Shown here: positions 44,488 through 46,676 of the stretch, piece after piece | Numbering within the stretch: position 1 is the first letter of the stretch | Layout of the letters: every line of letters starts with the position of its first letter | Source: Ilumatobacteraceae bacterium | GTDB taxonomy: Bacteria; Actinomycetota; Acidimicrobiia; Acidimicrobiales; Ilumatobacteraceae | NCBI GenBank assembly: GCA_022843125.1 | Contig: JALHOG010000013.1 | Location: 24,432 to 88,431 of the forward strand | Length of the DNA stretch: 64,000 bases | Direction: 5' to 3' | Position numbers and translations under genes: made by a program | The notes under the pieces: model-generated | What the model was told of the DNA's origin: nothing | Seen by the model: only the letters and a program-made list of their open reading frames with translations | The model's database searches: none

Positions 44488-45009
44488 CTACTGGAATGGC
44501 GGTGGCGGTGATCCGGTCCGCGGTGGGTCGGACGGCTCGAACGGGGACGGGTCGGTCAGGCGGGCGCACACCTGGCAGGTCCAGAGGGTCGCGTCGGGTC
44601 GGAAGCTTGGATCTGGCGCAGAGGTGTAGCGAGCTGGACGGGCGAGCACACCGCACACGGTGACTTCGCGTTCGAGGATGTCGCGGCGGCGCGACATCGG
44701 GTCTCGCGGTGAGCGGAGGGCGTGCCTACGGAACGGGATGTTGCTCTCCGCTCGGGCGCGCTCGAGTGGACGATCGTCGGTGCGTACCGAGCGTGCGCCG
44801 TGGCGGCAGCGCCAGCGGTAGGCGCGCTGGCGGCAAGCGTGCGAGCAGTAGAGACGTGGCCGGCCGGGGCGGTAATCGAGCGGGAACGAGCGATCGCACG
44901 CGGGACAATCCCACTGCTGGATGACACCGGTGATGTAGGCCTCGCGTGGCATGGCGTGGCGGGGGCGAGGCGGTGGCTGATCGATCGGTCGGCGGGAGGT
45001 CGGTGTCAT
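44488..45009 (-). CDS. double zinc-ribbon protein (CxxC...YCxxxCRQRAY type), function unknown
   Basis: 173 residues if started at ATG 45009; ATG 44952 (MPREAYITGVIQQWDCP) would give 154. The first zinc module is WDCPACDRSF...RLYCSHACRQRAYRWRC, a treble-clef-like finger common in small actinobacterial and phage proteins. A basic linker follows (RRHALRSPRDPMSRRRD), then a second cysteine set (VCGVLARP, WTCQVCARLTDP). The protein is strongly basic, consistent with nucleic-acid binding. Its 5' side faces the nine-site repeat array (nearest site 77 bp from 45009), so array and protein may be functionally linked; that is inference. Convergent with psuG. Confidence 0.7.
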   Translation of the reverse strand: MTPTSRRPIDQPPPRPRHAMPREAYITGVIQQWDCPACDRSFPLDYRPGRPRLYCSHACRQRAYRWRCRHGARSVRTDDRPLERARAESNIPFRRHALRSPRDPMSRRRDILEREVTVCGVLARPARYTSAPDPSFRPDATLWTCQVCARLTDPSPFEPSDPPRTGSPPPPFQ

Positions 45010-45084
45010 CGGTGGATCGTGCGCAGAGGGGTGTTGCAGCGGCCGTCGAGGCCGGGTCCCCGATCGTGGTGGTGTCGGGCACTT

Positions 45085-45444
45085 CGTGAATCGTCACGGA
45101 GGTCGATGGTGGTGGTGTCGTGTTCATCGTGAATCGTCACGCCGGTCGGTGGTGGTGTTGTGGGCTCTTCGTGAATCGTCACGCACGTGGTGCTAGTGGT
45201 GTTGTGGGGTCTTCGTGAATCGTCACGCACGTGGTGCTGGTGGTGTCGCTCCGTCGTGAATCGTCACGCAAGCGCAAACGTGCCCGCTCCCCGAGTTGTG
45301 GATGATGCGTGACGATTCACGATGGGGGCGAGCGGTCTGCGGTCGATGCGTGACGATTCACGATGGGGGCGAGCGGTCTGCGGTCGATGCGTGACGATTC
45401 ACGATGGGGGCGAGCGGTCTGCGGTCGATGCGTGACGATTCACG
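45085..45444. repeat. nine-site phased array of a 14-bp interrupted palindrome, in two inverted blocks
   Basis: Block 1 holds five copies of CGTGAATCGTCACG, cores (GTGAATCGTCAC) at 45086, 45129, 45171, 45215 and 45256. Block 2 holds four copies in reverse orientation, CGTGACGATTCACG, cores at 45309, 45350, 45391 and 45432. Spacings are 43, 42, 44, 41, then 53 across the junction, then 41, 41, 41. In block 2 three complete 41-bp units (45309-45431) are identical; in block 1 only the palindrome is conserved and the intervals are GT-rich and variable. The site has CGTGA / TCACG arms around four bases. The array occupies the 480-bp gap between the zinc-ribbon gene and the reductase gene, the only gap over 300 bp in the window. 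No ORF of convincing composition lies inside. Confidence 0.95.
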
Positions 45445-45490: not shown

Positions 45491-46075
45491 TCAGAGCTTC
45501 GCGGCGGTGCGCTCGACCCGGTCGAGCCAGGCGACCCGCTTGGCGTCGTCGGCTCGATCGAGGCCGTAGATCGCACACCACGTCGTGCGTGTCCGCTTCG
45601 AACACATCGCTCGGATCGACCGGAACGCGACTCGCTTGCCCGTCTCGCCCTCGAGTGCGTTCATGTACTTGGGGGACCCGTGGCTCGTGACTACGACGAT
45701 GCGCCGGATGTTGGTGAGCAGCGGACGCAGGATGTTCGCACCCGCCGGTAGCTCCCAGGCAACCCCCGACACCCACACCCGGTCGATCCAGCCCTTCAGC
45801 ATCGCAGGCTGACCACTCCACCACGTCGGGTACACCAGCACGAGCGCCTCGGCCCACGCCAGGTCGTCGGCGTACTGCTGCAACTCGGGCGCGACACCCG
45901 GGTCCGCGTGGGTGCGCCGCTCCTCACTGCTCATCGTCGGCTCGAAACCCTCGGCGTACAGGTCGGTGATCCTGGTCTCGTGGCCGGCACGCGCCAGCCC
46001 GATCAGAACCCGATCCTTGGCCGCAGCGACGAGCGACTCGGGATTGGGATGGCAATGCACCACCAGCACCCGCAT
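45491..46075 (-). CDS. flavodoxin-fold NAD(P)H-dependent oxidoreductase (copy 2)
   Basis: 194 residues from ATG 46075 (MRVLVVHCHPNPESLVAAAK). Quinone-reductase/KefF-type fold with the flavin phosphate region in the first loop, VLVYPTWWSGQPAMLKGWIDRV (FMN or FAD and dimer contact) and VVVTSHGSPKYMN. It likely reduces quinones by two electrons using NAD(P)H. It is a tandem paralogue of the gene at 46089-46676, 13 nt downstream of it, and shares YPTWWSGQPA(M/V)LKGW. The first long ORF extension is rejected because it overlaps that paralogue. Confidence 0.88.
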   Translation of the reverse strand: MRVLVVHCHPNPESLVAAAKDRVLIGLARAGHETRITDLYAEGFEPTMSSEERRTHADPGVAPELQQYADDLAWAEALVLVYPTWWSGQPAMLKGWIDRVWVSGVAWELPAGANILRPLLTNIRRIVVVTSHGSPKYMNALEGETGKRVAFRSIRAMCSKRTRTTWCAIYGLDRADDAKRVAWLDRVERTAAKL

Positions 46076-46088
46076 CACGGCCACCTCG

Positions 46089-46676
46089 TCACAGCCGTGC
46101 CATCCGCTTCTGGATGCGGGCGAGGAACTCGCGCCTGTCCTCGTCGGTCGTGGTGTCCATCGCGTACAGCGCGAGCCACGTCGAACGCGCGAACGTCCCA
46201 CACGACAACCGTAACGCCCTCGTGATCACGCGGCGCCCGTTGTCGTTGATCAACCACACGTACCGCCGCGGCGACCCGTACGTGCTGATCCCGACGATCC
46301 GGCGGATGTGTTTGAGACCGGGCTGCACCTTGTTCCGCTCGTCGAGATAGAACCCGACACCGGGCACCATCACGCGTTCGAGCCAACCCTTGAGCACCGC
46401 CGGCTGGCCACTCCACCAGGTGGGGTAGACGAACACCAGGGCGTCGGAGCGCTTGAGCCGAGCCGCATAGTCGGCCACCTGTGGATCCTTGATCGGGTCG
46501 TCGCCTTCGTAGCCGACCCGTTCCTCGAGCGACATCTGGGCGCGGAAGCCGTCGGCGTAGAGGTCGATCACGTCGGTCGTGTGACCGGCTGCCTCGAGTG
46601 CCGTCACGGCGGTATGTGCCGCAGCGTGCGTGAAGCTGTCGTCGCAGGGATGGGCGATCAGGACGAGAGCGTGCAT
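46089..46676 (-). CDS. flavodoxin-fold NAD(P)H-dependent oxidoreductase (copy 1)
   Basis: 195 residues from ATG 46676 (MHALVLIAHPCDDSFTHAAA). Same fold and motifs as its neighbour: VIDLYADGF, VFVYPTWWSGQPAVLKGWLERVMVPG and IVGISTYGSPRRY. Likely FMN/FAD quinone or nitro-compound reductase. It starts 4 nt after the GNAT gene ends, so GNAT-copy1-copy2 form a leftward operon whose promoter is at 47303. The two copies have diverged clearly in the C-terminal half, suggesting different substrates. Confidence 0.88.
   Translation of the reverse strand: MHALVLIAHPCDDSFTHAAAHTAVTALEAAGHTTDVIDLYADGFRAQMSLEERVGYEGDDPIKDPQVADYAARLKRSDALVFVYPTWWSGQPAVLKGWLERVMVPGVGFYLDERNKVQPGLKHIRRIVGISTYGSPRRYVWLINDNGRRVITRALRLSCGTFARSTWLALYAMDTTTDEDRREFLARIQKRMARL

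Follow-up and report, generated by a model that had tools for sequence, protein, structure and literature searches.

Plasmid iterons are tandem repeated sites upstream of a rep gene, parS sites are the chromosomal binding sites of ParB, and convergent CTCF sites are asymmetric zinc-finger sites that face each other. The array described here, which shares some traits with each of these systems, lies in a 64,000-nucleotide stretch of an Ilumatobacteraceae genome (hereafter the window). It is the upstream part of a conserved gene-array module, is very likely functional, and had no earlier description among the matches listed in the literature searched, including by the letters of the site. We give an even chance to the reading that it constitutes a multi-site binding platform for the adjacent predicted zinc-finger protein, which would thereby control its own, predicted damage-inducible, gene.

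The nine-site array and the adjacent gene

Between positions 45085 and 45444, CGTGAATCGTCACG occurs nine times without mismatch, five times on the plus strand and four on the minus strand (0.00 exact copies expected by chance from shuffles of the 64-kb window). Block 1 (45085-45268, plus strand) comprises the sites 45085-45098, 45128-45141, 45170-45183, 45214-45227 and 45255-45268, each preceded by a conserved T, and block 2 (45308-45444, minus strand) the sites 45308-45321, 45349-45362, 45390-45403 and 45431-45444. Spacings are 43, 42, 44 and 41 within the first block, 41, 41 and 41 within the second, and 53 at the inversion point, where the spacer (45269-45307) varies in length among relatives when site positions are compared. 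The first-pass annotation had reported these nine copies, their spacings and their two opposed blocks, and our measurements give the same values. Its view that block 1 conserves the 14 bp alone was too strong, since the units at 45152 and 45196 share 95% identity along 44 bp, so that the intervals there are partly common to both. Block 2 consists of near-identical 41-bp units.

The array is flanked on one side by the 3′ end of a gene with a flavodoxin fold (minus strand, 45491-46078; Pfam PF02525) and on the other by the 5′ end of another minus-strand gene (44488-45009), of which the first-pass annotation made no mention. The former, which has a second flavodoxin-fold gene next to it in the same orientation (the pair spans 45491-46676), is not thought to belong to the module. 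The latter encodes a protein of 173 aa with two predicted zinc fingers, as judged from its open reading frame, conserved residues, homologs and a structural model of fair quality (pLDDT 83). The conserved residues, C35-x2-C38...C55-x3-C59-RQRAYRWR followed by H96, C119 and C145-x2-C148, provide two cysteine/histidine clusters and a basic stretch, RQRAYRWR. These cysteines and this basic stretch, combined with the co-variation with the site described below, suggest a DNA-binding role.

For the window protein, Pfam returned no family at its cut-off and NCBIfam no match at E 0.01. There was no transposase among the Pfam or NCBIfam matches at E 0.01, no ParB-like domain among the Pfam matches and, across 41 family members, no replication-initiator domain in Pfam. 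PHROGs gave weak matches, to an unnamed family for 33 of the 41 members, to an HNH endonuclease family for 23 (best 5.4e-6), to a DNA polymerase/primase family for three (best 0.00098) and to a homing endonuclease for one; the HNH-like matches would suit a function other than site binding. The best E value of a Foldseek fold search was 1.1. The closest solved folds, all weak, are zinc fingers of the YacG and FCS types (first finger) and an uncharacterised protein from actinobacteria (second part). None of 52 homologs has a precomputed Pfam domain, nor does any bear a functional name. A phage or plasmid origin was considered and rejected, the protein having no match in plasmid or phage collections; viral contigs yielded two short zinc-ribbon matches.

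The source genome (5.49 Mb, 183 contigs, 93% complete) contains 11 exact copies of the 14-mer, nine in the window array and two on contig C11, plus one with a single mismatch, and none of its backwards control. The 11-mer GAATCGTCACG is found at 26 places, against 0 for the backwards control, and forms four clusters: the window (5 plus, 4 minus), C11 (2 plus, 2 minus), C22 (3 plus, 1 minus) and C56 (1 plus, 2 minus). In all four, plus sites are ahead and minus sites behind. Six more places are solitary and by eye resemble coding sequence. The site form at C22 and C56 is CCCGAATCGTCACG, which is non-palindromic. The C22 array is likewise directly upstream of a homolog of the zinc-finger gene, a clue pointing to this gene.

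A conserved module whose site type follows the protein tree

A protein search of 41 genomes gave matches in 13, some of them weak and partial. Repeat finding upstream of the gene in six of these genomes detected arrays in five, with units of ~36 bp in G006, 35 bp in G004, 35 and 46 bp in G001, 34 bp in G021 and 34-37 bp in G005; G023 has two upstream copies only. The core of these upstream arrays is GAATCGTCTC, replaced in G005 by GAATCGTCAC. Among the ten genomes of the genus, five match a tandem-pair pattern, with 0 backwards matches; these five have both an array and a full-length gene and the other five have neither, G007 and G008 showing partial weak matches to the first finger. Arrays, whose absence from all close relatives had been named as an argument against function, are thus present in four of the nine other genomes of the genus and lacking in five.

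At the family level, a profile search matched 88 of 221 genomes at E 1e-6 or better. Matches at E 1e-20 or better come from 27 genomes and 34 loci, the other 61 genomes matching mostly the first zinc finger. Thirty-two of these gene loci were read in detail, and the remaining two (G238:C417 and G240:C395), absent from the tree, were scored later as held-out loci, after the patterns were fixed. Over the 34 loci, 139 sites are located within 1 kb upstream of the gene and 0 within 1 kb downstream, so that the 5′ position of sites, a feature of autoregulatory arrays, is present. The 32 loci contribute 127 sites in 28,176 nt upstream and 0 in 30,503 nt downstream; their patterns were drawn after viewing the upstream regions, which makes the upstream count partly circular but not the downstream control. 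The held-out loci contribute 12 sites in 2,000 nt upstream and 0 in 2,000 nt downstream. The loci are related and the counts therefore non-independent, G242, G243 and G244 being near-copies. At least one upstream site is found at 32 of the 34 loci, the two siteless ones under the pattern being clade-B loci, G240:C209 and G241 (for which the contig holds only 279 bp upstream).

The orientation of the sites is equally regular. Plus sites strictly precede minus sites at 25 of 26 two-orientation gene loci, that is 23 of 24 and both held-out loci, which read ++- (G238:C417, 3 sites) and ++++----- (G240:C395, 9 sites); the exception, in G021, has one overlapping match. The same order is seen in five gene-less arrays with sites in both orientations (L009, L096, L149, L154 and L156).

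Short-site arrays and the clade-A gene (see below) also occur together: arrays are found in 11 of 221 genomes, 10 of which carry this gene (10/1/1/209 from hand-made counts, Fisher p 1.9e-15), and G158 (81% complete) has an array with no gene found. A pattern match was obtained in 19 genomes; G073, G119, G203, G224, G226, G227, G238 and G029 were dropped, their matches being lone pairs or short series of other site forms, with a different dispersed element in G226. Upstream of 53 remote homologs from other actinobacteria (L177-L184, L186-L230), which mostly match the first finger only, one single AATCGTC was seen and 52 loci had none; the nine Ilumatobacteraceae loci of the same scan all have 1 to 7 words upstream. 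Some arrays reach contig ends (start of G000:C22, ends of G006:C103 and G161:C37, start of G152:C180). Assembly thus apparently tends to break at arrays, so that the number of arrays counted is a minimum. Further upstream of some family genes (L131, L132, L133, L139 and L142) there are separate short-period tandem repeats, with units such as GATCAG, AAGCTCC and GGTGACCT, unrelated to the site.

When 165 units from 29 loci are aligned by their core, the conserved unit appears as an asymmetric site of ~15 bp, TNNYGAATCGTCWCR, of which the 14-mer CGTGAATCGTCACG is a local form. The search pattern dictates the core columns, which are therefore informative by construction; the T four bases ahead of GAATC, absent from this pattern, carries 2.50 bits over the 29 loci. 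Weaker base preferences flank the site on both sides and interval positions 13-34 carry at most 0.22 bits, in line with the first-pass idea that conservation acts on the site itself. The unit proposed there, a 14-bp interrupted palindrome, was abandoned: it occurs in 13 of 165 units and at 3 of 29 array loci. A lone exact 14-mer is also seen in G021, shortly upstream of a small acidic ORF (L012, G021:C1:4034469), the arrays of this genome using the CTC form.

Helical phasing, also proposed initially, does not hold as a general rule. Spacings are tight inside each locus, as expected from tandem duplication, and across loci they cluster at 34-35 and 41-46, with others at 22 (found in G161) and 55-57. 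Spacings of 34-35 and 22 are common, those of different loci are not constrained to whole turns, and the two main modes are ~8 bp apart, which is not one helical turn. A Rayleigh test on 28 locus medians at 10.5 bp gives R 0.57 (p ~1e-4, the loci being related), which we read as the effect of two tight spacing modes.

The protein tree of the 32 loci separates two clades with support 100/100. The 16 loci of clade A have the upstream site GAATCGTC[AT]C. The 16 loci of clade B have mostly longer sites beginning alike, e.g. GAATCTCCACGTGACGAA, and a two-member subclade has GAATCGTCAGTGAC; the variants in the family are A, T or the longer CACGTGACGAA. Mapping site labels on the tree (30 labelled rows) requires 4 changes, the minimum being 3, against a mean of 13.5 for shuffled labels, with 0 of 200 shuffles as low. 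The first test labelled G240 and G241 as B although they lack a clear site, and its repeat without both gave the same four changes. For the A/T split inside clade A, which is unsupported as a branch, 31 of 500 shuffles are as low. The type of site tracks the protein tree, and since the site changes when the protein does, we regard binding of the array by the protein as likely.

The promoter-like element and the arrays without the gene

Ahead of the zinc-finger gene, on the minus strand, a divergent TGTSACACCCC with 2 mismatches is found at 45028-45038 (shuffle p 0.16, alone not significant), ~46 bp from the nearest site and with no overlap. A putative -10-like hexamer, CACGAT (45016-45021, minus strand), so assigned from its sequence, lies a few bases ahead of the ATG at 45007-45009. 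Many gene loci display, just ahead of the start codon, TGTSACACCCC, ~8 nt and a TAnnnT-like hexamer. Matches to TGTSACACCCC with at most 2 mismatches are present at 25 of 32 gene loci, against 2.8 from shuffles, and the window copy is among the weaker ones. In all six genomes read, recA too has a TGTSACAC-type element upstream, and the class is found ahead of a radA-like gene, so called from its sequence and from ATPase and zinc-ribbon domains, and ahead of DUF222 or HNH genes. The GTSACACCC..ATG class (L296-L301, L266-L295) is widespread, with 38 places in the source genome against 1 for the control, some of them surely due to chance.

In mycobacteria, the LexA-independent promoter has the layout tTGTCRgtg-8-TAnnnT, according to PMC5656591. 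The layout of P1 (RecA-NDp, PafBC/ClgR) resembles that of the element upstream of recA, with equal spacing and with TGTCA/TGTGA and TAnnnT parts, and less strictly that of the zinc-finger gene; the downstream part of the -35-like element is CAC here whereas it is GTG in P1. From this resemblance, damage induction is predicted, and the zinc-finger gene would be damage-inducible.

Around 15 arrays lack the gene within the sequence read around them, at least three of them at contig ends, where the gene possibly lies beyond. Such arrays occur in 10 of the 11 array genomes. About six are situated between convergent 3′ ends (from a simple gene caller), a setting in which control of a promoter is hardly plausible; others are elsewhere, and several break off at contig ends. 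One, between rsmA and an S4-domain gene, is at the corresponding place in G001 and G004, and another precedes, in both G021 and G152, the same helix-hairpin-helix/PHP-like gene, these neighbour names being read from the sequences. We considered that such loci may carry decayed gene copies and rejected this: a tblastn search of 14 loci with 32 family proteins yielded no convincing match, the best hit (E 0.008, at L092) lying 2.7 kb from the L092 array. The gene-less arrays fit the autoregulatory model poorly and weigh most against an explanation by autoregulation alone.

Proposed mechanism, alternatives and known systems

A protein-binding regulatory array, as put forward in the first-pass annotation, remains the best reading, relatives keeping arrays at the corresponding gene. 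In the mechanism that we propose, damage would lead to synthesis of the zinc-finger protein, which would bind the sites within each block as an asymmetric unit. As the blocks face each other, bound copies could come together over the spacer, bending or looping the DNA, and bound protein may alter the output of the promoter, tens of bases away in the window; repression limiting the damage response is a guess. More sites would make a larger sink, which fits growth of the blocks by tandem duplication without a fixed number, and gene-less arrays would be further bound targets. A broader version, which we hold to be doubtful, is that a damage-induced zinc-finger family co-evolving with its site ties DNA loops, through convergent arrays, at its own gene and a few fixed spots.

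Alternatively, the zinc-finger protein may fold or hold the chromosome or mark loci, the array at its own gene being one of several anchors. This architectural role, which we think unlikely while granting it an appreciable chance, handles the gene-less arrays, including the two at corresponding places, better than the purely autoregulatory reading, and the maintained head-to-head order speaks for it as well. It is harder to reconcile with the few arrays per genome and with the single GAATCGTCYC words outside arrays, about as numerous in G001 (14) as in the array-less G009 (13), though G021, from another genus, has ~26. Nor is there a fixed distance from dnaA in the single-contig genomes, the arrays being ~1.38 and 1.09 Mb away in G001 and 2.22 and 1.16 Mb in G021. 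The array might also belong to a selfish or mobile repeat, REP-like or miniature, with the zinc-finger protein as helper. Array number does vary, tandem duplication is visible, G032 has three gene-array copies, and there are the weak PHROGs matches to HNH (23/41) and homing (one member) endonucleases. Yet terminal repeats of a transposon were rejected, no site being 3′ of the gene, no transposase appeared in the domain searches, and the neighbours of the gene-array pair match between different genera (G006 and G034) and between species (G001, G004 and G005); we see only a small chance for this origin. G226 (genus g11) contains a dispersed repeat, TCTGGACAGGAATCGTCYC, arranged head-to-head with a short loop soon after gene ends (L236, L260, L166, L167; 67 core matches, control 0). 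Such GAATCGTCYC hairpins, which follow the 3′ ends of genes in these loci, would favor a selfish repeat, but this genome has no protein family match and the hairpins may be unrelated.

It is quite improbable, in our opinion, that the sites bind another chromosomal factor, for instance a damage regulator of which the zinc-finger gene is merely a target. The damage-type promoter element and the array upstream of it speak for this; however, site type changes with the protein clade, and all five members of the genus without the full-length gene are also without arrays. Least of all do we favor an RNA element in which transcribed blocks pair as hairpins or terminators. The opposed blocks can pair, and the window 14-mer allows a 5-bp stem with a 4-nt loop, but the palindrome occurs at only 3 of 29 loci with a core that is asymmetric and constant, the flanks of plus and minus units differ in several loci (G005, G032_C188, C11), the window has no Rfam match, and the promoter-like element of the gene is downstream of the array.

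Taken as the binding platform of the zinc-finger protein, the array would tie an unnamed protein family to the DNA that it likely targets, both partners being available as natural variants. Such protein-site pairs are ready material for working out how a protein of this kind recognizes DNA. The module also brings a candidate component of the LexA-independent damage response in a little-studied group of actinobacteria.

The first-pass annotation had suggested an iteron-like or partition-site-like array, and neither a plasmid location nor proximity to dnaA was found. As in plasmid iterons, tandem sites are 5′ of the gene of their presumed binding protein. However, the module is chromosomal, including in G001 and G021, each a single contig bearing dnaA, and has no plasmid match; its blocks are opposed, some arrays are away from the gene, and no replication-initiator domain was found in Pfam, three of the 41 members giving the weak DNA polymerase/primase match in PHROGs. 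With parS/ParB it shares chromosomal sites and a dedicated, here presumed, binding protein, but its site is asymmetric, its tandem arrays are long, and they lie 1.1-2.2 Mb from dnaA, taken as the mark of the replication origin, in G001 and G021. The facing asymmetric sites recall CTCF by analogy only, zinc-finger binding being here predicted, the facing blocks only tens of bp apart and the protein unrelated. Finally, REP or BIME elements with their RAYT are also short opposed intergenic repeats near a dedicated gene (for REP, as described in PMC3733652). The module has neither their palindromic stem-loop unit nor a repeat-flanked tyrosine transposase gene: its unit is non-palindromic, present in few copies and on one side of a gene in which no transposase domain was found.
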